Below, in pieces: positions 36,239 through 64,000 of a stretch of 64,000 nucleotides of DNA. The notes beneath the pieces were generated by a model that was not told the origin of the DNA, searched no databases, and saw only the letters and a list, made by a program, of their open reading frames with translations. Source of the stretch: Siphonodentalium dalli. Taxonomy: Eukaryota; Mollusca; Scaphopoda; Gadilida; Siphonodentaliidae. Location: contig CP136064.1 in assembly GCA_032622095.1 (NCBI GenBank), forward strand, positions 131,055,605 to 131,119,604, read 5' to 3'. How positions within the stretch are numbered: position 1 is the stretch's first letter; each line of letters opens with the position of its first letter. Both the position numbers and the translations under genes were made by a program.

Positions 36239-36881
36239 GGCCCTGCCCTTGCAAGTTAAACTTTTTGTGGGGTCCTGTTGATATATATATATATATATTA
36301 TAATTATATTGAATACGAAATAAATCTCATTGAATCTTGAAATCAAGTTCGCCATCAACCGAAGTGCTCCCCCAGCGTTACTACCAATAACATTATTATT
36401 TGGCTAATATCAGTAATATTCTCCCCGTTTACACTCGATAACACAAACTTGTCTCCACATTTAAAATTCTTTGATATAGATCGTTTATATTCTGCAATAA
36501 TTTGTACACAAATTAAGGGACGGATTCTTATGTTTTATTGTGTTTTTAAACTTCGAGGTGGGAAAATCTCGGTTTGTTTACATTATGAATGTTTTGATTC
36601 CGATTACGGAATCAGAATCTGAATCCAGATTACGATTACGGTCTGTTCGTTACTTATTCTGGTCTGTCTTTTACCGAACCAATTTTGTGAGTGGAATCTT
36701 AATTATTCGTCAAAATGTCACCCTAAAATGCCGTTTATTCCGTGGAAATTGGACGATAACTTTTTTTTTCGAATGTCCAATAAGGAGTAATTAATTGATG
36801 TCACGACACCTCCTATTAATTAGACATGCATATTGTCAGTATACGAATCGTCTTGCTCACACATTAGAAAGAAAAGAACCA

Positions 36882-36890
<9 letters not shown>
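36239..36890. other. Left flank of the PLE array
   Basis: A TA tract near 36280-36298, a stretch echoing the GATTACGGAATCAGAATC words of the segmental duplication (about 36596-36640), and otherwise unremarkable DNA. It ends in ten A residues followed by (TA)11 at 36891-36912. Confidence 0.4.
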
Positions 36891-36912
<22 letters not shown>

Positions 36913-36914
36913 GC

Positions 36915-41162: not shown

Positions 41163-43525
41163 TTCCTCAGAAGGGCATCAGCCATGCGGAAAGAGTCGGT
41201 CTCGGCACCGAGATAGTCAATCTTGTACCCGACCTTTCCCTGAGCGCTGGTGAGAAATCAATACTTAGGTATGGTCTAACCTTTGTTCCTACCCCACCCG
41301 ATCTCAAAGAAACACCACATGTTGTTGAGACGGAGGATGGAACATTGGTTTTACCAGACTCTATGTATGCCATGGAAATGAACGGCGGTCCAGCAAGCAT
41401 GCAATTTAGGGAAGTAACAGCTATGGCTGATTTCTTTCGCAATTCGACAGGTTTAAAAGATCAATTTAAAGAACCTTCGATATGGACCCCCTCTGATCGC
41501 CAGATTGACCACTCCATTCCCGAGGTCGCTGGCTTAGTCAAAACCGACATCACAAATTTACCAAAATTTCACAACGAGGATAACCTCACTAAAGTTGAAA
41601 GAACTGCACTAAAAACTCTTCGCAGCAATAAAAACATTGTAATCAAACCTTGTGACAAAGGCAGCTCGCTCGTCATCATGTCTAAAGAAAATTACATTCT
41701 AGAAGCGACGCGCCAATTAAGCAACACTAAATATTACAAACCATTGGATGGGCCAATTTGGAAATCCAATGTTTTAAGATTCAATCTCATTCTCAAAAGC
41801 TTGCTGGACCAGGACGTTTTAAAGAAAAAACATGTTCAGTATCTAATTGCAAAACCTGAATCCAATAATAGGACATTTTATTTGCTACCTAAAATACACA
41901 AACCTTTGAGCTGTTGGACTAATCCATACACACCACCCGGTCGCCCCATCATCAGCGACGTGGCTTCGGAGTCGTACCACATTTCGGAGTTTATTGATTT
42001 CTATTTGAAACCAATTGCTACCCGCCATCCGAGCTATCTAAAAGACACGGAGGACTTCCTCATTAAATTGTCGAAAATTGAAGTTCCATCTTCTGCTTAC
42101 CTAATTAGTCTCGACGTGGAATCTATGTATACAAATATTGGAATCGATGCCGGATTAAAGTCAATTAAGAATGCATTTGATTTCCACCATGATCCTCATA
42201 GACCTGGAGATGAACTACTTCAATTATTAGAACTTTCTCTTAAAGGGAATGACTTTGAATTTAATGGACGATATTATTTACAGGTCTCCGGCTGCAGTAT
42301 GGGCAAGAAGTTTAGTCCTAATTTTGCCTCAATTTTTGTTGCAGAGTGGGAGAAAGGCGCCCTGGCCAAATCTGATAAACAACCATTAGCCTATTATAGA
42401 TTCTTGGACGACATATTTATCATTTGGACTCATGGTCTGGATGAGTTTAGGGTGTTCTTGGACATCTTGAACAGTCATGACGAATCAATCAAACTCAAAG
42501 AATCAATATCGCAAACCAGCATTGATTTCCTTGATTTAACAATATTTAAGGGCCCACAATTTACATCATGCAACATTTTAGATACAAAACTTTTTACGAA
42601 ACCAACGGATTCTCACCAGCTACTTCATCGTAAATCTTTCCATCCGCCAAAACTTTTCAATGGATTGATTAAATCTCAAATCATTCGATATCACCGGAAC
42701 TGCACGAACAGAAGCGACCTAAATCAAGCTTGTTCAGTGCTTTTCCAGGCTTTACGACCGCGCGGCTACTCTAGTAGATTACTGCGCCAAGTAAAGTCCG
42801 AAACTCTCAGAGAATTGAACTCGTCACGCCATGACCCAACATCGACTGAACCAACAAGGATACGGCACAACCGGCCGGTGTTGGGTAATGGTTCAGCCTC
42901 ATTTTGTCACAAAAAACGATGTTACATCAATACAATAGGATATATCAATACTAGTAACACTTTCACCAGCGAACAAACACGCATATCGTATCAAATGCAT
43001 AGCGAACTTAATTGTGATTCTAAAAATGTAATTTACTTAATCACATGCAAAAGATGCCGTATACAATATGTTGGACAAACAAAAACCTCTCTCAAAGTTA
43101 GAATGTCTAATCATCTTTCCAGTGTTCGCAAAAAACTCGACATGCAAATTTCCGATCATTTCAACTCATCTAATCATGACATTAAATCCCATTTCAGCTT
43201 TCAGCCAATAGAACAGACACCAATTCTAGCCGACGAAGACCAAACCGATTCAATACGCCTAGAACGCGAAAATCATTGGATGGGCGTACTTAAAACATAT
43301 CTTCCGTTCGGACTTAACATTGACTACAAAGGTGTTTCTCGAAATTTCTTGTGCTTTCCTCTGATCTACAATCGTAGAAATGTTGAAATCGCAAACATTT
43401 TCAGAAAAAACTTTGCATTATTAAACACTAAATTGACCGAGCCTCTCGACAAACGGGTTATTATTGCCTACAAGAAAAATCCCAGTTTGAGAGATATGCT
43501 CGTTCGATCTAGACTCAGACCTTGA
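41159..43525 (+). CDS. PLE reverse transcriptase with C-terminal GIY-YIG endonuclease (copy 2)
   Basis: Counting from the frameshift point the frame has 788 codons; a Met-initiated product could start only later. Near the N-terminus is SAGEKSILRYGLTFVPTPPD, the usual opening of PLE polymerases. RT follows: VIKPCDKGSS, FYLLPKIHKP, GRPIISD, motif A LDVESMYTNI, motif B CSMGKKFSPNFAS, motif C YYRFLDDIFIIW, all with catalytic residues. Then come a Cys-containing linker and the GIY-YIG nuclease (VIYLI, CKRC, QYVGQT, R-x2-NHLSS, RENHWMGV). PLE enzymes are telomerase-related RTs that prime at a nick made by the nuclease. No break is visible, so this copy may be active. Confidence 0.9.
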   Translation, partial: LIPQKGISHAERVGLGTEIVNLVPDLSLSAGEKSILRYGLTFVPTPPDLKETPHVVETEDGTLVLPDSMYAMEMNGGPASMQFREVTAMADFFRNSTGLKDQFKEPSIWTPSDRQIDHSIPEVAGLVKTDITNLPKFHNEDNLTKVERTALKTLRSNKNIVIKPCDKGSSLVIMSKENYILEATRQLSNTKYYKPLDGPIWKSNVLRFNLILKSLLDQDVLKKKHVQYLIAKPESNNRTFYLLPKIHKPLSCWTNPYTPPGRPIISDVASESYHISEFIDFYLKPIATRHPSYLKDTEDFLIKLSKIEVPSSAYLISLDVESMYTNIGIDAGLKSIKNAFDFHHDPHRPGDELLQLLELSLKGNDFEFNGRYYLQVSGCSMGKKFSPNFASIFVAEWEKGALAKSDKQPLAYYRFLDDIFIIWTHGLDEFRVFLDILNSHDESIKLKESISQTSIDFLDLTIFKGPQFTSCNILDTKLFTKPTDSHQLLHRKSFHPPKLFNGLIKSQIIRYHRNCTNRSDLNQACSVLFQALRPRGYSSRLLRQVKSETLRELNSSRHDPTSTEPTRIRHNRPVLGNGSASFCHKKRCYINTIGYINTSNTFTSEQTRISYQMHSELNCDSKNVIYLITCKRCRIQYVGQTKTSLKVRMSNHLSSVRKKLDMQISDHFNSSNHDIKSHFSFQPIEQTPILADEDQTDSIRLERENHWMGVLKTYLPFGLNIDYKGVSRNFLCFPLIYNRRNVEIANIFRKNFALLNTKLTEPLDKRVIIAYKKNPSLRDMLVRSRLRP

Positions 43526-44323: not shown

Positions 44324-45781
44324 ATGACTCAACCAAAACAACATAAACGTGGAAAAACTAACCGCCCAGAGCGGCAAAAAGACCAGGCTTATTTAGACCA
44401 TTCAAATCTAGTAAAGTTGCTATACAAAATTCTACAACTTTGGCACCATATTAATTTTTTACAGGACCGTTTGGAGAAGAAGGTCCTTCCGAAAGGCTTT
44501 TCGGCCATCGTTGAGTCAGGGCGAAAGAAGACATTCCGACCAGTGCTCCCCTGTGAGGATGTCTTCAATTCGCTTAAAGCGGACGCTTTTCAGTGGGGTT
44601 TAAACTCCATGAAAACTTTGGTAAATTATTATCGGAAAACGGAATCAGAAATTGAAGTCAAGGTTCTTTCGGCTCTTTCTTCTAAAACCCTTGACTTCGA
44701 CCGAGCACGTGACACGGCATTAAAATGGAGACTGAAGAATTTTGGCACCAAATTAACCAATGAGACAAAATCAAAGTTCTTGAGCATCTGTGGTAATCTT
44801 CAGTCCTCGATAGGTACACGAGTTGGCGTCCAAACTCATACAAACAAACGTGGTCGGTCACCCTCCCCTCCCCCACTAATCGCTCGCCAGCTTCAATTTC
44901 AGGATAGTCCAGGCAGGGATCAGACAACGTCGTCGTCTGTGAGATCCACACCAAAACGCGTCAAAGCCACACCACAGCCACAGAGACCTGCACCAAAACC
45001 ACGGACGTCACGCATATCCACTCCACCAAATACATCACTTCAAAATTCACCAGCCAAGAAAACAACACCACCAAAGCACATCTCTTCCAGCCCTCCTTCG
45101 CCTGTTGGTTCCATTGCTTCGATGACATCGCCAGCGATTTCAACATCATCACCATCGTATGCCGAGGTATTATCAACATCACCTAAGGTATCCAAATTTT
45201 ATAAATTTCGTCAACCTGGCCCTAAGAAGGATTGGTCCTTCCCTAAACAGATAAAAAACCCTGTTGTTATTTTAGGCTCTTCTAATGTGTCCCGGATCGA
45301 TGTCGATCCTCCCAAAAATGTTTGTATTGCTTCTTACCCAGGTGGCAATTTAGGTCATTTCTGCAACATGGCCCACAAACTGAAATCGAAGCCAGAAAAG
45401 ACACCTCGACACGTCATCATCAACATTGGCATCAACAACCGAGAGGACTGGAAGACAGACAACGACAAAGGCAAAACAGCAGGCACCACAGCTAAAAGCA
45501 GGGTAACTAACATGGTTAGTAATTTCCGAAAAGTTTTTCCTAATGCGACACTTCATTTTCAGGAAATAAATATCTCATTCAGTTTAGATTCTAGGGACCA
45601 GGATGTTCTGCGTGCCATTAACAGCCAAGCTCGTCAGACACAGAACCTCAAGGTCATACAGGCAATACCCCCCCGCGACTTTCACGTTCACGTGGAGAAT
45701 GACAACATCCACTGGACATCACAGACGGCGGCGAAAATCTACCAAGGCTGGACCAACATCTTTAAAGGTCATTTAAACTAA
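44324..45781 (+). CDS. PLE ORF1 with SGNH-hydrolase-like domain (copy 3)
   Basis: Identical in layout to ORF1 of copy 2, with the SGNH residues (GSSN, GINN, DNIH) conserved. The one amino-acid change I see is Arg for Gly at codon 135 (G-to-A at 44728), in the helical N-terminal region. Its 3' end again carries T TTA AAC immediately before TAA (45772-45781). Confidence 0.85.
   Translation: MTQPKQHKRGKTNRPERQKDQAYLDHSNLVKLLYKILQLWHHINFLQDRLEKKVLPKGFSAIVESGRKKTFRPVLPCEDVFNSLKADAFQWGLNSMKTLVNYYRKTESEIEVKVLSALSSKTLDFDRARDTALKWRLKNFGTKLTNETKSKFLSICGNLQSSIGTRVGVQTHTNKRGRSPSPPPLIARQLQFQDSPGRDQTTSSSVRSTPKRVKATPQPQRPAPKPRTSRISTPPNTSLQNSPAKKTTPPKHISSSPPSPVGSIASMTSPAISTSSPSYAEVLSTSPKVSKFYKFRQPGPKKDWSFPKQIKNPVVILGSSNVSRIDVDPPKNVCIASYPGGNLGHFCNMAHKLKSKPEKTPRHVIINIGINNREDWKTDNDKGKTAGTTAKSRVTNMVSNFRKVFPNATLHFQEINISFSLDSRDQDVLRAINSQARQTQNLKVIQAIPPRDFHVHVENDNIHWTSQTAAKIYQGWTNIFKGHLN
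45772..45778 (+). promoter_or_regulatory. Putative -1 ribosomal frameshift site, copy 3
   Basis: Same T TTA AAC TAA arrangement as 41153-41162. The -1 frame is open from 45778 to 48144. Confidence 0.6.
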
Positions 45782-48144
45782 TTCCTCAGAAGGGCATCAG
45801 CCATGCGGAAAGAGTCGGTCTCGGCACCGAGATAGTCAATCTTGTACCCGACCTTTCCCTGAGCGCTGGTGAGAAATCAATACTTAGGTATGGTCTAACC
45901 TTTGTTCCTACCCCACCCGATCTCAAAGAAACACCACATGTTGTTGAGACGGAGGATGGAACATTGGTTTTACCAGACTCTATGTATGCCATGGAAATGA
46001 ACGGCGGTCCAGCAAGCATGCAATTTAGGGAAGTAACAGCTATGGCTGATTTCTTTCGCAATTCGACAGGTTTAAAAGATCAATTTAAAGAACCTTCGAT
46101 ATGGACCCCCTCTGATCGCCAGATTGACCACTCCATTCCCGAGGTCGCTGGCTTAGTCAAAACCGACATCACAAATTTACCAAAATTTCACAACGAGGAT
46201 AACCTCACTAAAGTTGAAAGAACTGCACTAAAAACTCTTCGCAGCAATAAAAACATTGTAATCAAACCTTGTGACAAAGGCAGCTCGCTCGTCATCATGT
46301 CTAAAGAAAATTACATTCTAGAAGCGACGCGCCAATTAAGCAACACTAAATATTACAAACCATTGGATGGGCCAATTTGGAAATCCAATGTTTTAAGATT
46401 CAATCTCATTCTCAAAAGCTTGCTGGACCAGGACGTTTTAAAGAAAAAACATGTTCAGTATCTAATTGCAAAACCTGAATCCAATAATAGGACATTTTAT
46501 TTGCTACCTAAAATACACAAACCTTTGAGCTGTTGGACTAATCCATACACACCACCCGGTCGCCCCATCATCAGCGACGTGGCTTCGGAGTCGTACCACA
46601 TTTCGGAGTTTATTGATTTCTATTTGAAACCAATTGCTACCCGCCATCCGAGCTATCTAAAAGACACGGAGGACTTCCTCATTAAATTGTCGAAAATTGA
46701 AGTTCCATCTTCTGCTTACCTAATTAGTCTCGACGTGGAATCTATGTATACAAATATTGGAATCGATGCCGGATTAAAGTCAATTAAGAATGCATTTGAT
46801 TTCCACCATGATCCTCATAGACCTGGAGATGAACTACTTCAATTATTAGAACTTTCTCTTAAAGGGAATGACTTTGAATTTAATGGACGATATTATTTAC
46901 AGGTCTCCGGCTGCAGTATGGGCAAGAAGTTTAGTCCTAATTTTGCCTCAATTTTTGTTGCAGAGTGGGAGAAAGGCGCCCTGGCCAAATCTGATAAACA
47001 ACCATTAGCCTATTATAGATTCTTGGACGACATATTTATCATTTGGACTCATGGTCTGGATGAGTTTAGGGTGTTCTTGGACATCTTGAACAGTCATGAC
47101 GAATCAATCAAACTCAAAGAATCAATATCGCAAACCAGCATTGATTTCCTTGATTTAACAATATTTAAGGGCCCACAATTTACATCATGCAACATTTTAG
47201 ATACAAAACTTTTTACGAAACCAACGGATTCTCACCAGCTACTTCATCGTAAATCTTTCCATCCGCCAAAACTTTTCAATGGATTGATTAAATCTCAAAT
47301 CATTCGATATCACCGGAACTGCACGAACAGAAGCGACCTAAATCAAGCTTGTTCAGTGCTTTTCCAGGCTTTACGACCGCGCGGCTACTCTAGTAGATTA
47401 CTGCGCCAAGTAAAGTCCGAAACTCTCAGAGAATTGAACTCGTCACGCCATGACCCAACATCGACTGAACCAACAAGGATACGGCACAACCGGCCGGTGT
47501 TGGGTAATGGTTCAGCCTCATTTTGTCACAAAAAACGATGTTACATCAATACAATAGGATATATCAATACTAGTAACACTTTCACCAGCGAACAAACACG
47601 CATATCGTATCAAATGCATAGCGAACTTAATTGTGATTCTAAAAATGTAATTTACTTAATCACATGCAAAAGATGCCGTATACAATATGTTGGACAAACA
47701 AAAACCTCTCTCAAAGTTAGAATGTCTAATCATCTTTCCAGTGTTCGCAAAACACTCGACATGCAAATTTCCGATCATTTCAACTCATCTAATCATGACA
47801 TTAAATCCCATTTCAGCTTTCAGCCAATAGAACAGACACCAATTCTAGCCGACGAAGACCAAACCGATTCAATACGCCTAGAACGCGAAAATCATTGGAT
47901 GGGCGTACTTAAAACATATCTTCCGTTCGGACTTAACATTGACTACAAAGGTGTTTCTCGAAATTTCTTGTGCTTTCCTCTGATCTACAATCGTAGAAAT
48001 GTTGAAATCGCAAACATTTTCAGAAAAAACTTTGCATTATTAAACACTAAATTGACCGAGCCTCTCGACAAACGGGTTATTATTGCCTACAAGAAAAATC
48101 CCAGTTTGAGAGATATGCTCGTTCGATCTAGACTCAGACCTTGA
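45778..48144 (+). CDS. PLE reverse transcriptase with GIY-YIG endonuclease (copy 3)
   Basis: 788 codons from the frameshift point, with the same RT motifs and GIY-YIG nuclease as copy 2. A Lys-to-Thr change near the nuclease helix (codon ACA in the RKTLDMQ segment, about 47753) is the only protein difference noticed. All catalytic residues are present and no break is seen, so this copy too may be competent. Confidence 0.9.
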   Translation, partial: LIPQKGISHAERVGLGTEIVNLVPDLSLSAGEKSILRYGLTFVPTPPDLKETPHVVETEDGTLVLPDSMYAMEMNGGPASMQFREVTAMADFFRNSTGLKDQFKEPSIWTPSDRQIDHSIPEVAGLVKTDITNLPKFHNEDNLTKVERTALKTLRSNKNIVIKPCDKGSSLVIMSKENYILEATRQLSNTKYYKPLDGPIWKSNVLRFNLILKSLLDQDVLKKKHVQYLIAKPESNNRTFYLLPKIHKPLSCWTNPYTPPGRPIISDVASESYHISEFIDFYLKPIATRHPSYLKDTEDFLIKLSKIEVPSSAYLISLDVESMYTNIGIDAGLKSIKNAFDFHHDPHRPGDELLQLLELSLKGNDFEFNGRYYLQVSGCSMGKKFSPNFASIFVAEWEKGALAKSDKQPLAYYRFLDDIFIIWTHGLDEFRVFLDILNSHDESIKLKESISQTSIDFLDLTIFKGPQFTSCNILDTKLFTKPTDSHQLLHRKSFHPPKLFNGLIKSQIIRYHRNCTNRSDLNQACSVLFQALRPRGYSSRLLRQVKSETLRELNSSRHDPTSTEPTRIRHNRPVLGNGSASFCHKKRCYINTIGYINTSNTFTSEQTRISYQMHSELNCDSKNVIYLITCKRCRIQYVGQTKTSLKVRMSNHLSSVRKTLDMQISDHFNSSNHDIKSHFSFQPIEQTPILADEDQTDSIRLERENHWMGVLKTYLPFGLNIDYKGVSRNFLCFPLIYNRRNVEIANIFRKNFALLNTKLTEPLDKRVIIAYKKNPSLRDMLVRSRLRP

Positions 48145-53636: not shown

Positions 53637-54349
53637 TTTTCACATAGCAAATATCAAAATATCAAATAATCTGAAATTTGTTGTACCGGTACCATGTATT
53701 ATGTAGAATACTCAAGTGTGATTATGTGACTAGATCATGTGACTATATATTATGAAAATGAATGTTAATAAAAACTTTGGCACTCTGCCTATATATCCCT
53801 TGAAATGTGATTATGTTGACACATTTCTTGATTAATGACACTTATATGATAAATTCAAATAGTATCGTTATCTCATTATGCACTGTTCTATTCAAATATT
53901 GTTCAATAAATTATGATAATGCAGGATAATCAGCTATTTGGTTGCTCAATTGATAATTTTCTCAAATTTAGGGGGGGTGGGTGTCCAAAACTGACCGGAA
54001 AAAACTTCCTGAAACGGAAAAAAAAAGGGTGGGTGTCCAAAATTGCCTGGAAAAAAAGGCCGGAAACGGAAGAAATTGGGTGGGTGGGTCCCCCGAGGCC
54101 GGAAAAAAAAAATCATCATACGTGCCTGGAATTTTTTTCCGACCCCCCCCCCCCCCCCCTGTTAGTACTGCTGAATTAAGAGATATCTCCTCGGCCGCTA
54201 AGAGATATCTCCAATTCGGCAGTATTGACAAGAACAGGCTTAAAACGAAGGATCCCTCGCGCAGATTATTAATAAACATACACGTGGCATTTGGGAAAGG
54301 GGAAACATGAAACGAAAGTTAAAGTTTATGTCACATTTTTATCGACAAA

Positions 54350-54567: not shown

Positions 54568-54745
54568 TTGGCTGTCACTCTGGCCCACCCCCTCGCTCGG
54601 GGTCACTCTGGTCAGATTGACAGCCAGCGAGGGGGTGGGCCAGAAAAAATCCAAATCAAATTCTGCGGGCCACTCTGGCCCACTCTGGCCCATGGGCCAG
54701 AGTGGCCCACAGCGAGGGGGTGGACCAGAGTGTCCCGCCCAGGGT
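54568..54745. repeat. Nested inverted repeats of TCACTCTGGCCCACC type
   Basis: Several direct and inverted copies of CACTCTGGCCCA with AGCGAGGGGGTGG. The same words occur at about 56955-57015, at the outer edge of the opposite inverted repeat arm. Confidence 0.75.
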
Positions 54746-55205
54746 CGGTCCAGAGGTTGTGTTAGATTCCAAAGAGTACGGTGAGCGCTTCGAAGGGTTT
54801 TTTTTTTACAGAAAAGAGCACAATTTACTAATGCTTCGATTTTTTCTCGGATTCTAATGGCAGTGTGGTAAGCAAAGGGCGCCCCCATTCGCTGTACACA
54901 CTGAACTTAGAATAATACCGAGCAAAAATAGATGCATTGGTAAATTGTGCAACTTTACCAGTGCATTTTTAACAAAAGCGAAAATCTTCGAATAAATTCG
55001 AAGACGATAGCGTTGTAAAATGCACTTGTAGAAATTGCCGTTCAGTGAAATGTTATGAGATAATGGTAAAATGGTACAGATAAAATTTTCCCGAGTCAAA
55101 TCGGTGTTTTATTCATAGAAATATGATGCTTTTGACAAAAAAAAGAAACACAGCTGATTTGACGTTCGGGGAAAATTGGTAGAAAAACTCAATGACGTTG
55201 TCAAC
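54670..55205. repeat. Long inverted repeat, left arm
   Basis: About 500 bp matched in inverted orientation by 56478-57003, with high identity and small indels. Shared blocks include TAGATTCCAAAGAGTA, GTGAGCGCTTCGAAG, AATTTACTAATG/CATTAGTAAATT and GCAATTTCTACAAGT in complement. Long terminal repeats of several hundred bp are usual for Polintons. Here the arms are only about 2.3 kb apart end to end. Confidence 0.85.
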
Positions 55206-55230
55206 GAGGCCCGCGCACCCCATATATTTG
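55157..55230 (+). promoter_or_regulatory. Shared upstream module of the 149-residue gene
   Basis: GATTTGACGTTCGGGGAAAA, then TGGTAGAAAAACTCAATGAC, GTTGTC and CCGCGC, then the TATA-like CATATATTTG (55221-55230). Related modules precede the genes at 56436 (- strand) and 57196. The TGACGT words resemble CRE/ATF sites. Confidence 0.6.
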
Positions 55231-55291
55231 ATCCTCGAAGATGTTAACGTTATTACATGCTTAAATTGTAACGTTAGCGTTATTTTGAAAC

Positions 55292-55741
55292 ATGGATCCA
55301 GTAACGGAATTTCTCAAGACTATTGATGTGCAGTACGACCATGTTCCTGCAACAACGCAAATGTCGAATCCACTGTATGCAGGCATTGTGACACCACGGG
55401 TAGAACAGCAACAGGTACCAATGGTGTATCCGCGAACGGATCAACAACCAGTGTATACACCGCCGGTGAAAACACAACAAATGACTCAACCTGTTATATA
55501 CCAAGTTATCAACAGTTCACAATGGGAAGAACAGACAAAATTGTTACGGAATATTTGGCAGGAAATGAAGGATTTGCGAAAGCAAATAACACAAAAACCG
55601 GCTGAATGTACAATCAACTTGAAACCTCACACGATTGACATACCAATTGAGGTACATGATTTCCAGAAAGAACCTACGAAGCGATCAACATTTGGATCAC
55701 TCGGGAAAGATTTAACAGTGATGAAGAAAGAAAAGAAATGA
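55292..55741 (+). CDS. Unknown Polinton-like protein with histone-type 3' end
   Basis: 149 residues, no family recognised. The first 85 are Pro/Gln/Thr/Val-rich and likely disordered; residues about 75-105 (SSQWEEQTKLLRNIWQEMKD) look like an amphipathic helix; the tail is Lys-rich. The start is the first ATG, 62 nt after the TATA-like box. The stop is 20 nt before a histone-type stem-loop and no AATAAA is seen nearby, so the mRNA may end in the stem-loop. It is convergent with the - strand gene at 56008. By context it belongs to the Polinton/adintovirus-like block, perhaps a small structural or accessory protein. Confidence 0.6.
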   Translation: MDPVTEFLKTIDVQYDHVPATTQMSNPLYAGIVTPRVEQQQVPMVYPRTDQQPVYTPPVKTQQMTQPVIYQVINSSQWEEQTKLLRNIWQEMKDLRKQITQKPAECTINLKPHTIDIPIEVHDFQKEPTKRSTFGSLGKDLTVMKKEKK

Positions 55742-55761
55742 TTTTTTATATTATTTTAAAC

Positions 55762-55777
55762 GGCCCTTTTCAGGGCC
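55762..55777 (+). terminator. Histone-mRNA-type 3' stem-loop, gene 1
   Basis: GGCCCT-TTTC-AGGGCC, a perfect 6-bp stem with a four-base loop, preceded by AAAC and followed by AC. This fits the metazoan replication-dependent histone consensus. A purine-rich AAAAGATACGCTCTG follows at 55791-55805 in the place of the histone downstream element. Confidence 0.8.
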
Positions 55778-55978
55778 ACTTAAAATTCACAAAAGATACG
55801 CTCTGTATTATTATGCTATATGATGATCGTATTATAGATATGAAGGGTGGTTGTGGGCTTTTTTTATTGTTAGGGTAGTATTCTTTGATAAATTATGTGA
55901 ACATTCTCTCCAATTTCAGGAAGAATGAACGAATCGTACAGTAGCAATTTCAGAGCGTATCTTTTTAAAAATTTGTGA

Positions 55979-55994
55979 GGCCCTGAAAAGGACC
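55979..55994 (-). terminator. Histone-mRNA-type 3' stem-loop, gene 2
   Basis: On the - strand GGTCCT-TTTC-AGGGCC, a 6-bp stem with one U-G pair and the same TTTC loop, 13 nt after the stop of the - strand gene. AAAAGATACGCTCTG follows at 55965-55951. Confidence 0.75.
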
Positions 55995-56007
55995 GTTTTG
56001 GATGGTT

Positions 56008-56436
56008 TCAAAAGAAACCGCACGATGTGTTTGGGTTTGAATACAGCTGAAAGTGGTTTTGGGAACATCGCAACCAAATGGCACAATTGCACGGCTGGCC
56101 TGTCTGTATCCCCCAGAGCGGCAAGAATTCGTAAACTCTATGCCCTGAGAAGATTATGATAGACCACTGCAGTGATGTAGCTGCAAGTCGCACCATCAAT
56201 CTTGACGTCCCCAGCAATCTGGTATGTCGGAACCACCGTGGTGGCAATACAAAGACCCGGTCTCTGTGGTCAGTCATCAGCATAACGGTGTATCTGTAGA
56301 TATCAAAGAAGTTATCTACAGTACCCGTTTCTGCTAAACTCAAAGCCTTCCATATCATCTGTACTTCATCCCCAAACACACCTCTCACCAGCATCCCATC
56401 CTCCAAATAGCTCCGATACAGATCTCGGTAATCCAT
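56008..56436 (-). CDS. Unknown Polinton-like protein with histone-type 3' end
   Basis: 142 residues beginning MDYRDLYRSYLEDGML, no family recognised. The first ~60 residues look like a folded acidic domain. The second half is rich in Trp, Cys and aromatic residues, and an alternative frame there also has protein-like composition, so a frameshift inside cannot be excluded. The stop lies 13 nt before the stem-loop, a spacing typical of histone genes, which supports this C-terminus. The promoter module sits in the right inverted-repeat arm. It converges on the 149-residue gene. Confidence 0.45.
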   Translation of the reverse strand: MDYRDLYRSYLEDGMLVRGVFGDEVQMIWKALSLAETGTVDNFFDIYRYTVMLMTDHRDRVFVLPPRWFRHTRLLGTSRLMVRLAATSLQWSIIIFSGHRVYEFLPLWGIQTGQPCNCAIWLRCSQNHFQLYSNPNTSCGFF

Positions 56437-56439
56437 TTC

Positions 56440-56535
56440 GGTATGAATGAAGAATGGGGATATCTGTTAATTTTTTATTGAAAACGCGCGGACGTCATGC
56501 GTTTTTCTACCAAATTTTTCCGAACGTCAAATCAA
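56440..56535 (-). promoter_or_regulatory. Shared upstream module of the - strand gene
   Basis: On the - strand: GATTTGACGTTCGGAAAAAT, TTGGTAGAAAAACGCATGAC, GTCCGCGCG, then AATAAAAAATT as a TATA-like box. It has the same order of blocks as at 55157-55230. Confidence 0.6.
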
Positions 56536-57003
56536 TTGTGTTTCTTTTTTTGTCAAAAACATCATATTTCTATGAATAAAACACCGATTTGACTCGGGAA
56601 AATTTTATCTGTACCATTTTACCATTATCTCATAACATTTCACTGAACGGCAATTTCTACAAGTACATTTTACAACGCTATCGTCTTCGAATTTATTCAA
56701 AGACTTTCGCTTTTGTTAAAAAATGCACTGGTAAAGTAGCACAATTTACCAAAGCATCTATTTTTGCTCAGTATTAATCTAAGTTCAGTGTGTACAGCGA
56801 ATGGGAATGCCCTTCGCTTACCACACTGCCATTAGAATCCGAGAAAAAATCTATACATTAGTAAATTGTGCTCTTTTCTGTCAAAAAAACACTTCGAAGC
56901 GCTCACCTTACTCTTTGGAATCTAACACAACCTCTGGACCGATGAATCCGACCTGGGTTGTCACTCTGGCCCACCCCTCGCTGACTGTCACTCTGGCCCA
57001 TGG
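56478..57003. repeat. Long inverted repeat, right arm
   Basis: Inverted partner of 54670-55205. It differs by scattered substitutions and small indels, so the arms are not freshly copied. It includes the promoter module of the - strand gene at its inner edge. Confidence 0.85.
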
Positions 57004-57087
57004 GTCAGAGTAACAGCCCAGGTTATGGGACCTGTCACTGACACACCCCACATCGCTCGAGGTATTCCGAAAAAAAAGAATCACACT

Positions 57088-57165
57088 TGAATTGACGTTC
57101 GGGGATATTTGGTGAAATACGCAATGACGTCGTCAGCGGCGTCCGCGCGTTTCATATAATATGGA
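57088..57165 (+). promoter_or_regulatory. Shared upstream module of the 117-residue gene
   Basis: GAATTGACGTTCGGGGATAT, TTGGTGAAATACGCAATGAC, GTCGTCAGCG, CCGCGCG, then CATATAATATGG. This copy lies outside the inverted repeats, so the module is conserved independently of them. Confidence 0.65.
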
Positions 57166-57195
57166 GCGCAGTGTAGCGTTTTTTTTATCTTCAAA

Positions 57196-57549
57196 ATGTT
57201 CTCTAAACTAAAAGAGAAAATTTTGCTAAAATTCTCTGCCGATGCTCGATTAAAGTATTGGCAGAAGAATGTTAGAGATTCGGAGAGCCATAAGTTAGCC
57301 ATTAGAGCTGGAGTTCAAGAATTCCTGCAAATACGGAGACCTAGTCCTCCCAAGGTGTATGTGGAAACTCCAGAGTGGAAACCCACGTATAAGGAGGGAG
57401 CATTATATCCAGACTTGTCTGAATTTAATCCTCCAAAGCTGCTACCAAGGTGGATTACCACTGAGGCAGCAGAATACATGCAGGATCCATACTGGAGACC
57501 CACATATAACAAGGGGGGATTTTATCCTGATTTGTCTGAATTTTATTGA
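57196..57549 (+). CDS. Unknown Polinton-like protein with internal PTY..YPDLSEF repeat
   Basis: 117 residues. It begins with a basic amphipathic stretch (MFSKLKEKILLKFSADARLK). Two imperfect repeats follow, each with W-(K/R)-PTY, then G and YPDLSEF: one ends near residue 78, the other at the C-terminus. No family is recognised. A TATA-like box lies 34-40 nt upstream of the ATG, and a histone-type stem-loop starts 19 nt after the stop. Its upstream module and 3' end match those of the two genes on its left, which places all three under the same control. Confidence 0.6.
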   Translation: MFSKLKEKILLKFSADARLKYWQKNVRDSESHKLAIRAGVQEFLQIRRPSPPKVYVETPEWKPTYKEGALYPDLSEFNPPKLLPRWITTEAAEYMQDPYWRPTYNKGGFYPDLSEFY

Positions 57550-57568
57550 CTCAGCAAACAATTTAAAC

Positions 57569-57584
57569 GGCCCTTTTCAGGGCC
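57569..57584 (+). terminator. Histone-mRNA-type 3' stem-loop, gene 3
   Basis: GGCCCT-TTTC-AGGGCC with AAAC before and ACCCA after, the full histone consensus including the ACCCA tail. AAAAGATACGCTCTG follows at 57598-57612. Confidence 0.85.
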
Positions 57585-57685
57585 ACCCAAATTTTTCAAA
57601 AGATACGCTCTGAAATTGCTAAAAAAACGTAACAAGTAATTAAATCAATAATATTTTATTCACCAATTTTAACTTTCTTGGAAGA

Positions 57686-58216
57686 TTATCGCGATAAACG
57701 TCTTTTTCTCTTTCTGCTAGGCAAAGTGTTTTGCTTAATTTCAGTATCGTTAGCGCCTTTGGCTACAGCGTTTATCACTTCCATCTGCGAATCCTCCGTG
57801 TTTAGAATAGTGATTTCATCATTTGACACTCTCAGTTTTCACATCCGCGATCTCGTTAATTGACATCGCGGTTGAGTTGCATTGTTCCCCACTTTTAGCT
57901 TTCACATCCGCGATCTCGTTAGTTGATGTCTCAGTTTGATCAATGTCCATTACATCACATGGTGTGAGATAATCGTTGTCTGATGTGTGCGTCCAAGTAG
58001 ACTTCCCAGGAGTATAGATTCACTCACCATCAATGATGATTTTTTCATCTGATCAATCCTTTTTTTCGTAGTGCCATCACATTGAAAAGCCCAATGTGAA
58101 CTCGAATTGCATCTAAAACAGTTACCGTGTGGTGGTATCCACTTTGTATTCTTTAAAACTTCTAATGCAATTTTTCGTAAATGTTGTATGTTGTTACTCT
58201 GCAATCGTGGATCCAT
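57686..58216 (-). pseudogene. Zinc-knuckle protein with basic C-terminus, frameshifted
   Basis: On the - strand the frame 58216-57950 has a CCHC knuckle (C-x2-C-x4-H-x4-C, CFRCNSSSHWAFQC) near residues 33-46. Protein-like sequence then continues in other frames: a twice-repeated NEIADVK segment at about 57830-57940, and a C-terminus ending in SRKRKRRLSR with TAA at 57686. At least two frame changes are needed, so the gene is broken. AATAAA on the - strand lies at about 57657-57652, so this gene has a conventional poly(A) signal rather than a stem-loop. It is divergent from the polymerase across a shared palindromic promoter. Probable nucleic-acid-binding protein; family unknown. Confidence 0.55.
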
Positions 58217-58248
58217 TGTGAGCGTTCGGTGCGTTATTCAGTCGTCAG

Positions 58249-58365
58249 TGAAATGACGACGTGATGAAAAAGCGCGTCGCTTTTATGCTCTGACACGGAC
58301 GATGACTGCGCATGTCCGTGTCAGAGCATAAAAGCGACGCGATTTTTCATCACGTCGTCATTTCA
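58249..58365. promoter_or_regulatory. Palindromic bidirectional promoter
   Basis: 52-bp arms (58249-58300 and 58314-58365) complementary at all but one position around 13 nt. Each arm carries a TATA-like CATAAAAGCG reading outward, about 35 nt from the arm edge. Translation starts follow 3 nt beyond the right arm (58368, polymerase) and 33 nt beyond the left arm (58216, zinc-knuckle gene). So the same promoter sequence drives both directions. Confidence 0.7.
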
Positions 58366-58367
58366 CG

Positions 58368-58754
58368 ATGAAGCGCCTTGTGCCATATTCAGATAGCGAA
58401 AGCGAACGAGATAATAGAAAGAGAGTGCGACTGGATGATGACTGTAAATATTATACTATAAAAAATCTGACTGATAAATACTCGAGGAAATTTAAAACAG
58501 CATCAAAGAAATACAACATTACATTTCAAGAATTTCATCAACCATTTCAAACTGTTCACAGAATTTTCAAAGATCTGGTGAACAGTTTGAAAGATGAGTG
58601 TGATGCAGGACCAAAAGATCAAATGAGAATTTCCATCTTTCATCCAGGGCTAGATCTAGGGATTCACGTCCCGTTCACTGAAGCAAAAGACCTGACGTGT
58701 GAATTATTGCTTGACAACATAGAAAAAGTTGCACAATCGAACAAAAAATTCTAA
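58368..58754 (+). pseudogene. Polinton-type DNA polymerase B, N-terminal part
   Basis: 128 codons starting MKRLVPYSDSESERD. An acidic/basic head is followed by the conserved N-terminal region of Polinton and adintovirus protein-primed polymerases (helical FKTASKKYNITFQEF, then MRISIFHPGLDLGIHVPFTE). A TAA at 58752-58754 cuts the frame; after it the same frame still reads family-like sequence (DGQMTFDITVMHMPTG) before the next frame change by about 58850. These enzymes replicate linear element DNA from a terminal protein. The promoter is the palindrome just upstream. Confidence 0.75.
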
Positions 58755-58776
58755 ATTCATGACGGACAGATGACAT

Positions 58777-59967
58777 TTGATATCACTGTCATGCATATGC
58801 CTACAGGTACGTACCGCAAGACATACCTTACATTATGGAGCATTCGGTGAAAAAAATCAAATGAAAACAGTAAAGAAAAGTATTCTTCTGATTCAGAACG
58901 CAGAAGATAACATGTGTTTTGCGAGGGCTGTCGTTGTTGGTATGTGTAATGCTGACAAAAAAGATACCACTGAATGGAAGCAACAATGGAAACGGATTAC
59001 GAGACCAGCAAGAGCTCCACAACTGGAAGCTGCAAAGTCATTGTTGGATAAAGTGGGGTTATCACACGACACCAGTTGCGGGGCTGAGGAATACAAAATT
59101 ATTCAGGAACAATTATATCCGGAGTATGTTATAAAAATAAATAATCAATTTGCTGACGAAGGCTTTCTTTTTCAACCACCACCAGTTGGGAAAGAAAGTA
59201 AAGTTGTCCATCTATATTTCAATGACAACCACTACGATGTGATCACAACTGTCACAGGATTCCTTGGATGTATTTATTACTGTGAACACTGTGATGTCGG
59301 TTCGAACAACAGAGGTGATCATTTATGTCCATACAAGTGTATGTGTTTCGAGGGTCAGATATGCCCCTTTGAACGATGGATACACTGCATCAAATGTAAG
59401 AGGACTTTTAGAAGTAAACGATGTCTCGACAATCATTTGAAAAAATCACCAAAACAAGACAAAACTATTTGTGATATGATACATAAATGCCAGAAATGCG
59501 GGGTTGATATCGTCACACGAAAGGAGAAAAGACATATCTGTTCGGGAACAAAGAAGTGTAAATACTGTAAGGAAATCGTTCCATCAGACCACAGATGTCA
59601 TATTCAACAGTACGAAAAGAAAGAAATACAGAAAGAAGTAAAGGTACCATTCATATTTTTTGATTTTGAATGTCAACAAGATACTGGTGTTCATATACCC
59701 AATTTTTGTGTTGTACAAACTGCTTGTGAAAATTGTATATGTAAACCCATTGATGAAATATGCAATTCATGTGATTCTGTATTGTCAAATAGAGAATATG
59801 TTTTTAAAGGTGAAAATGTATTGGAAAGATTTAGTAAATGGTTGTTTACACCAACGATCATAAAGGTACAACATGTATTGCTCACAATGCAAGAGGTTAC
59901 GATAGTCAGTTCCTCTTACATTACCTGTTGGAACAATGGAAATTCAAAACCTAATGTTTTATTATGA
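58777..59967 (+). pseudogene. Polinton-type DNA polymerase B, exonuclease part
   Basis: In another frame from about 58820 the family continues with KSILLIQNAEDNMCFARAVV. A Cys/His-rich zinc-binding region follows (many C-x2-C pairs between about 59280 and 59610). The 3'-5' exonuclease motif I is FFDFECQQD at about 59655. The frame loses similarity near 59850; the next motif (HNARGYDSQF, exonuclease II) is in a shifted frame at about 59885-59915, and a second shift lies near 59955. The listed Met start is not a real one; this is an internal segment. The breaks show the polymerase is not functional here. Confidence 0.8.
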
Positions 59968-60512
59968 ATGGTAACAAAATACTGAGTTTACAATGTAATG
60001 GTGTTAGAATAATCGATTCATTGAGTTTCATCCCAATGGCATTATCTAAATTTCCAAAAACATTCCAACTTGAAGAAATGGCTAAAGGTGATTTTCCACA
60101 TTGGGAAAACACACATGACTTTCAGAATTACGTAGGACCATATCTAGACAAAAAATACTATAAGCCTGAAATCATGTCTGAGGAAAATAGGGATTCATTT
60201 CTGAAATGGTACGAAGCTAGGGGTGAGGATATTTTTGATTTCCAATAAGAAATTCAAAAGTATTGTAAATCAGATGTAGACATTTTAAGACGTGGATGTG
60301 GCAAATTCAGACTATGTGTAATGGAAACTGATCAAATAGATCCATTCAGGGAAGCAATAACATTAGCTCAAACCTGTAACCTTGCATGGAGAAAAAATTC
60401 ATTACCAGAGAATTCTCTAGGTATAATTTCAGACGCTGGATATCCACAAGCGCGTAAATTTTCAATGAAGCAATTCGATGGCTACAGTACATTGCTACAA
60501 AACAAAATATAA
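59964..60512 (+). pseudogene. Polinton-type DNA polymerase B, exonuclease-to-polymerase linker part
   Basis: The frame reads NGNKILSLQCNGVRIIDSLS, then DFPHWENTHDF and, across an in-frame TAA at 60246-60248, YCKSDVDIL (exonuclease III, Y-x3-D). It continues to NSLGIISDAGYPQARKFSMK and is closed by TAA at 60510-60512. Beyond it, family-like sequence goes on in a shifted frame (60515-60610). The order of motifs is that of a complete family B polymerase; only the frame integrity is lost. Confidence 0.75.
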
Positions 60513-60609
60513 ACATAAAACATGCTTTAAATGGTGGTGAAGTTAAAATAGGCAGACATTTTGTTGATGGTTATCATGCAGAATCAAACACAGTGTATGA
60601 AATGTATGG

Positions 60610-62196
60610 GTGGTTTTTTTTCATGGCTGTCCTACTTGCTATCCAGATAGAAACCGCCGAAACCCATACAGTAATATAACAATGCATGAATTGTATGAAA
60701 AAACAATAAAAACGGAAACTGAAATCAAAAGTTTGGGATGCAAATTAATATGCATCTGGGAACATGACCTGGACAATAAATGTAAAGAAGACAAAAATTA
60801 AAAACAAACTATGGACCAATTCTATTTGCATCAAGACCCAATTAAACCAAGGGAAGCATTATTTGGTGGCAGGACTAATGCTCTAAAATTATATCATGAA
60901 ATAGAACCAAAATCTAAACAGGAAATAAAATATATTGATATATGCAGTTTGTATCCTAGTGTGAATAAATATAGGGAGTACCCTCTTGGTCATCCTGCAA
61001 TTCTAAGTCAGGAACAAATAGGAGACATCAAATCTTACAAAGGACTCATTAAATGCAAAGTATTACCTCCAAATAAATTGTACATTCCAGTGCTACCGAT
61101 CCACTGTAATTTCTGTAATAACAAAATGATATATACATTGTGTAAAACTTGTGCAGAAAATGAAAGTGGACAGTGTAGTCATAAAACTGAACAGCGTGTT
61201 TTAGTTGGAGTTTGGACGCATGTAGAATTATTCAAAGCAATAGAATTGGGTTACAAAATTCTGGAAGTGTATCAAGTTTGGCATTGGACTGAGTGGTCGG
61301 ACAAAGTATACAGGGATTACATTGATAAATACCTCAAAATTAAACAAGAAGCAAGTGGATATCCAAATTATGTTAAAAGTGAAGAAGATAAAGATAAATA
61401 CATTAAAGATTATTATGAGGTTGAAGGTATAAAACTTGAAGAAAAAAAATTATTAAAAAAACCAGGACTCCGCCAGTGCGCAAAATTAATGATAAATTGC
61501 ATATGGGGAAAAAATGCACAAAATAATATTCTTACTAAAACTGAATATATCTCAGAACCATCCAGATATTTTGAACTACTAACTGATAAAAATATCACCG
61601 TCAAAGCAGTTGAAATATTTGAACAGGATAAATTCATATTATTCAGTTATGAAAATAAAACCGATATTATAGAACCACATCCATCTGCCAATGTAGTTGT
61701 TGCTTCATTTGTCACAGCATATGCACGCTTGGAGTTGTATAAAGTTTTAGAAAAACTCCAAGATAGGGTGTTGTATTTCGACACCGATAGCTGTATGTAT
61801 ATTTTCGATCCAGAAAAAGAAAATATCAAAATTGAAGACAGCTACCTTGGTAAATGGACTGATGAGCATCCAGATGCTAAATTCATGAAATTTGTAGGGT
61901 TAGGACCGAAAAATTATGGATATCAGTACGTGAAAGATGGTGTCATAAAATCTGTATGTAATGTCAAGGGCATCACTCTGGATTATAAAACTAAACAGCA
62001 AATAAATTTTCATTCAATGGTTGAATGTGTTAATGACCGGTCAAATTTTCAACGTGTCATAAACTATCCATGCAGAATTAAACACACAAAGAACCGAGAA
62101 GTAATTAGTGAAGAGCAAACAAAAACATTCCGATCTATGTACAACAAACGACTTGTTGTGGGTGAATACAACACAATTCCTTATGGATGGAATTGA
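60610..62196 (+). pseudogene. Polinton-type DNA polymerase B, palm and C-terminal part
   Basis: HGCPTCYPDRNRRNP and a TAA at 60799-60801 precede the long intact stretch 60811-62196 (461 codons). Motif A is YIDICSLYPSVNKYREYPLG; motif B is RQCAKLMINCIWGKNAQN (Cys where Ser is common); motif C is LYFDTDSCMYI. The C-terminus ends NTIPYGWN. A frame change within the T-run at about 60612-60620 joins it to the preceding part. All polymerase carboxylates are present. The end overlaps the next small ORF by 14 nt, a compact arrangement typical of these elements. Confidence 0.85.
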
Positions 62197-62389
62197 TGTG
62201 TTACCAGCAGAGATGCTTTTGAAAATTTATAATAACTTGATCGAAATGTCAAAAATGGATCAAGAAATCAAACGAGAACTTAAGCAAACTTGGTTTTTGA
62301 GGGAAAGTAAAATTATAGTGCAGACTTTGCTGAACGGACATTTCTCTGAGGGGCAGAGTCGACTGAGATGTTTTATTGGGAGATCATAA
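62183..62389 (+). CDS. Small F-box-like protein
   Basis: 68 residues starting MDGIDVLPAEMLLKIYNNLI inside the end of the polymerase frame. The N-terminal half fits an F-box (LPxE-hhhKIhxxL ... W at residue about 36). F-box proteins link substrates to SCF ubiquitin ligases, and small viral or element-borne F-box proteins are known in other groups. With only one short motif the assignment is tentative. The ATG overlaps the polymerase stop (TATGGATGGAATTGA), suggesting coupled or leaky expression. Confidence 0.45.
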   Translation: MDGIDVLPAEMLLKIYNNLIEMSKMDQEIKRELKQTWFLRESKIIVQTLLNGHFSEGQSRLRCFIGRS

Positions 62390-62407: not shown

Positions 62408-62782
62408 ATGGATATATTGGATCACCTGTTTTCAGATTATTGGATATTTCATGGTGCTCCTAAAAACAAAATAAACGAAATTCGTGAATTAGTTGAAAAT
62501 AATTTTATTCGTTTTGCTGAATATCAAGACAGGATTCTCAATGAAAAAACTTTGAAATTCGAAGAGGTGACGAGAATATATGGATACATTATTCTCCGAG
62601 AACCATGTACAATTTTCACTGCTGAAAAGTTATTTGAAGAAAAAGTGTCTTTGGATTATATTGTAAAAACCACTAGACCTATTTCAGACTTAGATAATGA
62701 ACTCATATGGACATTTGGAATAATCTGGAGTTATGGTGACTCTTCATTAAAAATAAAAAAGTTTGATTCCGAACAATCCTAA
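62408..62782 (+). CDS. Unknown protein in the Polinton-like block
   Basis: 124 residues, MDILDHLFSDYWIFHGAPKN at the start, no family recognised. Mixed alpha/beta composition, no signal peptide or membrane segment. It lies between the polymerase end and the ATPase, in tight spacing, and its end is 10 nt before the ATPase start chosen here. The unbroken frame among broken neighbours may be due to its short length. Confidence 0.5.
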   Translation: MDILDHLFSDYWIFHGAPKNKINEIRELVENNFIRFAEYQDRILNEKTLKFEEVTRIYGYIILREPCTIFTAEKLFEEKVSLDYIVKTTRPISDLDNELIWTFGIIWSYGDSSLKIKKFDSEQS

Positions 62783-62792
62783 TCAATCTTAC

Positions 62793-63443
62793 ATGGACGA
62801 ATCATTGTTGTTCAAACATCCCTGTAACATGTTCATATCGGGGCCAAGTGGTTGTGGTAAAACAGATTTTGTTAAGAAATTAATCGAATATAAAGATGAT
62901 TTGTTCAAACCTGTTACATACAAAGTCTTTTGGTGTTACAAAGAATGGCAAAATACCTATAGTCAGATGCAAGAATTTCACAATATTCAATTTATAAATG
63001 GAATACCGGATGATGACAATGAACTTGTCGATGACACAGACTTACCGCACCTCGTCGTTTTTGATGACATGTTAGGTGATAAAGATGAAGAAAAAATTAT
63101 GTTGTGGTTTACAAGAAAAGGACATCACAGAAATACGTCTGTTATTTACATAACCCAAAACATGTTTCAGAAATCTAAAGCGAGTAGAACTTTGAGTTTG
63201 AATGCACATTACATGGTATTATTTCAAAGCGTGCATGATAAAGGCAAAATAAAAATTCTTGCCTCTCAAATGCAAATACTTCATTTAATGCAAGCATATG
63301 ATGATGGAACTTCAACCAATCATGGTTATTTACTACTCGATTTTCACCCAAAAACGGATAAATCGTTGAGACTTAGAACTGATATTTTCCATCGCTGGCT
63401 CACAAATGACGATCGAGGTGCGGTAATATATTCATCGGTATAA
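62793..63443 (+). CDS. Polinton/adintovirus-type DNA-packaging ATPase (FtsK/HerA-like)
   Basis: 216 residues from ATG 62793; the open frame reaches further left but has no ATG. Walker A is ISGPSGCGKTDFVKKL near residue 16. Walker B is LPHLVVFDDMLGD near residue 85. VIYITQNMFQKS follows as a sensor-like segment. In Polintons and related viruses this ATPase pumps element DNA into the capsid. The frame is complete, unlike the polymerase, and all NTPase residues are present. Its presence next to a protein-primed polymerase is the main reason to call the block Polinton/adintovirus-like. Confidence 0.85.
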   Translation: MDESLLFKHPCNMFISGPSGCGKTDFVKKLIEYKDDLFKPVTYKVFWCYKEWQNTYSQMQEFHNIQFINGIPDDDNELVDDTDLPHLVVFDDMLGDKDEEKIMLWFTRKGHHRNTSVIYITQNMFQKSKASRTLSLNAHYMVLFQSVHDKGKIKILASQMQILHLMQAYDDGTSTNHGYLLLDFHPKTDKSLRLRTDIFHRWLTNDDRGAVIYSSV

Positions 63444-63739: not shown

Positions 63740-64000
63740 GATCAAACAGAGTAAATGCTACTCGAGTAATTCTACAATTGCACAGCGAATTAGTCCAGTT
63801 AGAGTAAATTCTACAATTGCACAGCGAGCTACTCCACCTAGAGTAAATTCTACTGGATTAAATTCTACATTTGCTAGATTTCAACCACTCAACGATAATG
63901 GCCCGCAACCAATTCAATCAGTTCAAGAAGCAGAACATTACCCATTGGTTCAACGATACTCAAAAATTATGAATTTTTCAAACCCATCGAAATTAGCTTT
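63740..64000 (+). pseudogene. Partial Polinton-like ORF running off the window end
   Basis: From about 63755 a frame rich in Asn, Ser, Thr and Arg (repeated RVNSTIAQR) continues to FQPLNDNGPQPIQSVQEAEH and stays open to 64000. Just upstream the repeat unit occurs in another frame, which suggests an indel in the repeated part. No start codon is visible near. It could be the N-terminal part of a structural gene. Partial and uncertain. Confidence 0.35.

Follow-up and report, generated by a model that had tools for sequence, protein, structure and literature searches.

Three non-histone open reading frames (ORFs) in the genome of the scaphopod Siphonodentalium dalli are each followed by a cassette of the kind that ends animal replication-dependent histone genes, that is, a short hairpin and, at a fixed distance, a purine-containing downstream element. 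The cassettes lie in a stretch of 64,000 nucleotides (nt) that was analysed as a whole (assembly GCA_032622095.1, contig CP136064.1, positions 131,055,605 to 131,119,604; hereafter, the window), where the three ORFs, here called genes 1, 2 and 3, adjoin a replication and packaging module of the Polinton/adintovirus type, consisting of PolB and an A32/FtsK-type ATPase, in what is probably a DNA element of viral origin. The occurrence of such cassettes on non-histone ORFs beside a module of this type is real and unusual. Judging from the sequence, we consider it likely that the three ORFs use the host histone route, through SLBP and the U7 small nuclear ribonucleoprotein (U7 snRNP), and that their expression is linked to replication.

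Histone-type cassettes behind three stop codons

All three cassettes are of one design and lie on the sense strand, each 3′ of the stop codon of a different ORF (Table 1). The hairpin, of sequence GG(C/T)CCTTTTCAGGGCC with AAAC directly 5′ of it, has a 6-base-pair (bp) stem and a UUUC loop in every case, begins 20, 13 and 19 nt downstream of the stops of genes 1, 2 and 3, respectively, and fits the pattern GGYYYTTTTCARRRCC with zero mismatches. Separated from it by a spacer of exactly 13 nt in three of three cassettes, an exact copy of the 15-mer AAAAGATACGCTCTG provides the purine-containing element on the same strand; a scan of the 64-kb window found no exact copy beyond the three cassettes. 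The AAAGA that follows soon after the hairpin is in keeping with the known histone downstream element. An earlier note on this DNA had placed the hairpins and 15-mers where we find them, without a mismatch, and its distances from stop to hairpin hold as well, whereas the offset of 12–15 nt it gave for the 15-mer has to be replaced by a constant 13 nt.

The Rfam covariance model of the histone 3′ untranslated region stem-loop (RF00032, curated gathering cut-off 34 bits) accepted the hairpins of gene 3 (E 1.5e-7) and gene 1 (E 1e-6), with E-values referring to 64 kb searched against 4227 families, and no fourth match with E up to 0.05 was present in the 64 kb. The earlier identification of the stem-loops as histone-type is thus upheld for genes 1 and 3 by a covariance model independent of the note, while the stem-loop of gene 2 remains sub-threshold (E 0.0062 in 10 kb and 0.04 in 64 kb). 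The cassette of gene 2 is a close relative of the gene 3 cassette: 53 of 57 columns are alike, and of the four differences three affect the spacer and one the stem, where a C-G pair becomes U-G without loss of pairing; the 15-mer is unchanged.

Comparison of genes 1 and 3 delimits a common block of 51 nt, just outside of which identity drops to 5/20 on each side. Within the block, none of the 40 positions in the hairpin, its flanks and the 15-mer has changed, compared with 5 of 11 spacer columns (P 2e-4, a value to be taken as a guide because the division into core and spacer was chosen after the alignment was seen). The histone pre-mRNA machinery measures the distance from hairpin to element and not the intervening letters, and a conserved hairpin and 15-mer with a drifted spacer is the pattern that would be expected if such a machinery were reading these transcripts.

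We assessed how often such motifs arise by chance. Hairpins of the exact class (a 6-bp GG...CC stem, G-U allowed, with a loop starting TTT or TTC) were found four times, against 0.18 expected per window and a maximum of two in 100 Markov sequences; one of the four (56019–56004, minus strand) lies outside the cassettes. Scans that tolerated mismatches gave counts that were not significant, both for the hairpin pattern with two mismatches allowed (3 found, 1.52 expected, 24/100 shuffles reaching 3) and for the 15-mer with three allowed (4 found, 1.86 expected, 12/100 shuffles reaching 4), but the cassette hits under discussion have zero mismatches.

The exact-class hairpin outside the cassettes, GGTTTC-TTTT-GAAACC, overlaps the stop codon of gene 2 and stands 9 nt before its histone-type hairpin; the same hairpin scan detected no comparable extra hairpin at genes 1 and 3.

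Coding status and upstream regions of the three genes

Genes 1, 2 and 3 are mutually unrelated in sequence, have no Pfam match near the cut-off and no PHROGs match, and do not code for histones, so that their earlier description as unrelated non-histone ORFs proved right with respect both to one another and to the four core histones. Searching the PDB sequences with gene 2 returned nothing. In the 3.75-kb block, a third-longest ORF of at least 117 amino acids (aa) occurred in 0 of 500 Markov sequences, and codon-usage scoring, with the adjacent ORFs of PolB and the ATPase as training set, favoured the frame of gene 1 with 26.6 bits, the next frame reaching 12.7. Gene 2 is probably damaged, to judge from its codon usage. 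For genes 1 and 3, structure models predicted from single sequences were of too low a quality for use (mean predicted local distance difference test scores 54.1 and 55.6). Gene 3 contains an internal repeat of 61 nt, 80% identical, which codes for two W-x-PTY-x-x-G-x-x-YPDLSEF-like units.

The upstream regions of genes 1 and 2 form an inverted repeat that flanks these two genes and may represent a terminal repeat of the element together with its internal duplicate; the element extends to the right beyond the window. Upstream of all three genes we found TTGACGTTCGG, another TGACG/CGTCA motif and GCGCG or CGCGC, and genes 2 and 3 have, in addition, a TATA-like site near −45. The sharing of such motifs may be fortuitous, given 85 occurrences of TGACG/CGTCA in the window. 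The upstream region of gene 2 lacks 13 columns adjacent to the TGACG motif.

Proposed use of the host histone pathway

Under the favoured reading, host SLBP would bind the hairpins of genes 1 and 3, and that of gene 2 while this gene was intact, and host U7 snRNP would act on AAAAGAUACGCUCUG to bring about cleavage a few nucleotides past the hairpin. The 15-mer would pair with the 5′ end of host U7, whose predicted sequence includes CAGAGCGUAUCUUUU, or UCUUUU as a minimum. The resulting mRNAs would likely lack poly(A) and appear chiefly during S phase, when SLBP is plentiful; this underlies the predicted link to replication, and the gain for the element would be expression in step with DNA replication. 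A bolder version of this reading, which we hold to be as probable as its negation, states that a virus-like integrating element has put several non-histone genes of its own under the host histone 3′ end pathway, tuned to host U7 by a complementary 15-nt tag, with expression turned on as the host replicates its DNA and independent of the poly(A) machinery, and that these would be the first natural non-histone genes, and this the first mobile element, known to do so.

Several points weigh against the favoured reading. Possible poly(A) signals lie behind genes 2 and 3. The hairpin of gene 2 stays below the 34 bits of the RF00032 cut-off, and its 3′ flank is altered (TCAC). A shared-word search of a protein database found no homologues of genes 1 and 3, so that their status as genes rests on length and codon usage; yet in Markov sequences of the 3.75-kb block the longest ORF reached at least 149 aa in 3.4% of cases and at least 117 aa in 21.8%, and random 149-codon stretches (n = 300, from 7–32 kb) had a mean codon score of −1.6, with a standard deviation of 8.8 and a maximum of 30.3. 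The frame of gene 3 is weakly favoured (6.5, next frame −4.3), and gene 2 scores −3.1, being positive over approximately its first 60 codons only. Furthermore, the element is represented by a single copy with a broken PolB, and searches of IMG/VR, GTDB contigs, phages and plasmids revealed no further copy or relative, although scans of viral or prokaryote DNA with few patterns provide weak evidence of absence.

The takeover of the histone route proposed in the earlier note is accordingly backed in part, by histone-type cassettes on the right strand and in the right place, with Polinton-type neighbours, and is weakened by the poly(A) signals at two genes and by the sub-threshold, damaged gene 2. 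In our assessment, the predicted function is well supported by the anatomy of the locus and rests on one decayed copy.

Poly(A) signals and alternative explanations

The AATAAA behind gene 2 and the ATTAAA behind gene 3 suggest that these genes may have a fallback, polyadenylated form outside S phase. This leads to a tentative alternative, possible but in our view doubtful, namely, that the genes are dual-ended, with cleavage at the hairpin in dividing cells and use of the downstream poly(A) signal otherwise, in which case expression would be broadened and not restricted to S phase. There is a precedent for such a double signal: histone genes of mussel and other invertebrates are reported to have a hairpin, a purine-rich element and an AATAAA (PMC2270838). 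Gene 1, however, has neither AATAAA nor ATTAAA within 300 nt, and the hexamers are frequent in this region anyway, with 28 on the plus strand and 12 on the minus strand between 54.5 and 64 kb. The AATAAA that the earlier note had assigned to the neighbouring zinc-knuckle ORF is indeed present, 289 nt past its stop codon.

The cassettes might instead be functionless relics of a host histone gene, whose 3′ (and perhaps 5′) flank was captured and then multiplied when adjacent genes recombined. Such copying would fit the repetition of the cassettes with partly common upstream regions and the decay of this element copy. We nevertheless regard this origin as unlikely: the spacer has diverged while the hairpin and the 15-mer have not, bar the one pair-preserving change, the cassettes stand directly behind three different stop codons, and no histone coding remnant was found in the window, where tblastn matches with the four core histones were insignificant (the best, E 0.38, being a lysine-rich stretch at 54037–54111).

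Still less probable, we think, is a role at the DNA level, with the palindrome and the 15-mer serving as a site of recombination or replication and resembling histone 3′ ends by accident. Inverted repeats abound in the block (11 pairs of at least 25 nt in 11 kb), and oppositely oriented cassettes could recombine, but the match to RF00032 extends over the whole length of the model with an E-value of 1e-6 or lower at two sites, and the cassettes are always in the sense orientation, 3′ of an ORF. It is barely credible that the cluster arose by chance around ORFs that are no genes: while genes 1 and 3 have no homologues and the codon score of gene 2 is negative, 0.18 hairpins expected per window and three exact 15-mers at one fixed distance weigh against it, as do the related upstream regions at all three ORFs.

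The adjoining element and its neighbours

The genes of the block are arranged in the order gene 1 (forward), gene 2 (reverse), gene 3 (forward), zinc-knuckle ORF (reverse), PolB, an ORF of 124 aa and ATPase (all three forward). Two proteins typical of Polintons and adintoviruses are present, a viral-type PolB (PF03175, 7e-29 in 60811–62196, with a further match of 9.8e-5, below the cut-off, in 59964–60248) and an A32/FtsK-type ATPase (PF04665, above the cut-off), in agreement with the Polinton-like nature of the block asserted in the earlier note. The N-terminal part of PolB has no Pfam match in 58777–59967 and none above the cut-off in 58368–58754. The PolB frame is broken at several places in 58368–62250, the ATPase behind it is open, and this copy of the element looks inactive to judge from its reading frames. 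An rve integrase and a double jelly-roll capsid protein were not among the window ORFs scanned; their genes probably lie beyond the right end of the window at 64000. From adjacency and similar upstream motifs, we infer that genes 1–3 belong to the same element as PolB.

A search with the ATPase gave 225 candidates, 151 of them homologues at E up to 0.001, with the full-length ones up to 71% identical. Among the 120 homologues listed is one from a metagenome-assembled genome of Candidatus Thiodiazotropha taylori, with 64% identity. Candidatus Thiodiazotropha taylori is a symbiont of lucinid clams, and the match hints at host DNA from a bivalve. The zinc-knuckle ORF has no hairpin, and in codon usage another frame outscores its own (scores of 9.0, 4.4 and 10.8, with 9.0 for its own frame and 10.8 for the best). 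Between this ORF and PolB, which are divergent, lies a near-perfect palindrome that also has TGACG, GCGCG and TATA-like motifs and is probably a symmetrical divergent promoter common to both. Matches to miRNA families at 58244–58369 on both strands were below the cut-offs and reflect the palindrome.

Elsewhere in the window, a 485-aa ORF is twice paired with a reverse transcriptase that has a GIY-YIG domain, at 39705–43525 and 44324–48144, 4.6 kb apart; the two pairs are near-identical by eye, and a partial copy is located at 36795–38906. The reverse transcriptase with GIY-YIG, of which the first copy was tested, is Penelope-like. An ORF at 3842–5419 on the minus strand has a weak RVT_3 match below the cut-off and is DIRS-like by eye.

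Table 1. Cassettes, genes and other features of the block, numbered from the first nucleotide of the window.
Feature	Position	Strand	Details
Hairpin of gene 1, GGCCCT-TTTC-AGGGCC	55762–55777	+	RF00032 35.8 bits over 55757–55802
Putative histone downstream element of gene 1, AAAAGATACGCTCTG	55791–55805	+	Exact match, 13 nt past hairpin
Hairpin of gene 2, GGTCCT-TTTC-AGGGCC	55979–55994	-	One G-U pair; RF00032 23.5 bits over 55954–55999
Putative histone downstream element of gene 2	55951–55965	-	Exact match, 13 nt past hairpin
Hairpin of gene 3, GGCCCT-TTTC-AGGGCC	57569–57584	+	RF00032 38.0 bits over 57564–57609
Putative histone downstream element of gene 3	57598–57612	+	Exact match, 13 nt past hairpin
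Gene 1, ORF of 149 aa	55292–55741	+	No Pfam above cut-off, PHROGs or histone similarity; best codon score of six frames
Gene 2, ORF of 142 aa, probably damaged	56008–56436	-	Codon score positive over about the first 60 codons only
Gene 3, ORF of 117 aa, internal repeat	57196–57549	+	No Pfam or PHROGs family
AATAAA behind gene 2, possible poly(A) signal as fallback	55863–55868	-	82 nt past gene 2 15-mer
ATTAAA behind gene 3, possible poly(A) signal as fallback	57639–57644	+	26 nt past gene 3 15-mer
Gene 1 upstream region, inverted copy of gene 2 upstream region	54745–55200	+	93.6% over 455 columns
Gene 2 upstream region, inverted copy of gene 1 upstream region	56490–56942	-	93.6% over 455 columns
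Gene 3 promoter-like region	57070–57160	+	TTGACGTTCGG and GCGCG-type motifs common with genes 1 and 2
Zinc-knuckle ORF, without hairpin	57950–58216	-	Weak zf-CCHC match, below cut-off; AATAAA at 57660–57655 (-)
Near-perfect palindrome between zinc-knuckle ORF and PolB	58248–58366		53-nt arms, 98% complementary
PolB gene, frame broken by stops and frame changes	58368–62196	+	PF03175; part before 59964 assigned by eye
A32/FtsK-type packaging ATPase, open ORF	62763–63443	+	PF04665 32.2 bits, cut-off 22.8

Searches for relatives of the element

Relatives of the element were sought in viral or prokaryote DNA (IMG/VR, GTDB contigs, and phage and plasmid collections). Gene 3 and the ATPase, used as single sequences, had no relative in IMG/VR, and neither did a PolB motif pattern that does match the window. 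Two ATPase alignments of 39 and 12 rows (A1 and A2, both including the ATPase of the window), each reduced to two short peptide patterns and thus weak as probes, yielded no relative in IMG/VR and GTDB contigs. There was no match for 54570–58370 by blastn against plasmids and phages or for the ATPase by tblastn against phages.

Three hairpin patterns retrieved 13 loci from IMG/VR, which we reject as chance hits, none of them reaching the RF00032 cut-off; this control counts in favour of the histone-type reading of the cassettes. All six pairs are formed in 8 of the 13. Within each of the pairs L001/L002, L006/L008 and L012/L013, the two loci appear to be duplicates, the ORFs at L001–L003 are phage-like by eye, and the longest open frames ending at most 80 nt before the hairpins have 82 codons (L010) and 42 codons (L002). 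The hairpin of L010, on the minus strand within 3909–3952, has the RF00032 consensus letters GGCTCTTTTAAGAGCC followed by ACC; being below the RF00032 cut-off, it was taken as chance, too.

Relation to known systems and implications

The cassettes resemble those of animal replication-dependent histone genes in the size of the hairpin, the GG..CC stem ends, the UUUC loop, the short distance from the stop codon and an AAAGA-containing element at fixed spacing, and differ from them in that the ORFs are non-histone, the downstream element is a constant 15-mer and a PolB/ATPase module adjoins. Among molluscs, the histone genes of mussel and of a lucinid clam likewise have a hairpin near the stop codon and a purine-rich element, in mussel also a downstream AATAAA, but those genes code for histones (PMC2270838, PMC6210712). 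In Lucina pectinata, the palindrome is described for all its histone mRNAs and nearby purine-rich elements only for H1_A, H2A_X, H3 and H4 (PMC6210712).

With Polintons/Mavericks and adintoviruses, the element shares a DNA_pol_B_2-family PolB and the packaging ATPase, and possibly, with adintoviruses, an OTU-like region before the polymerase domain, seen by eye only, in the part of PolB where Pfam finds no match; an OTU-like domain at the N-terminus of adintovirus PolB is mentioned in PMC11071296. Unlike these elements as described, it has accessory genes with histone-type 3′ ends. The histoid genes of adomaviruses, as presented in the same source, also link an animal DNA virus group to histones, but there it is the protein that is histone-like, whereas here it is the mRNA end, and the proteins are not. 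The parts of the system are thus known, and the combination was not found described; literature searches, judged by titles and the beginnings of abstracts, turned up no description of histone-type 3′ ends in Polinton, Maverick or adintovirus genes.

If the favoured reading is true, the presence of the full cassette on a mobile element's non-histone genes would mean that the histone 3′ end pathway can be borrowed, and these genes would serve as a natural experiment on the contribution of the hairpin by itself, be it to S-phase timing, stability or translation. The occurrence of RF00032 next to PolB/ATPase genes offers a handle for the search for other such elements. More generally, these genes would hint at how integrating DNA elements time their genes to replication.

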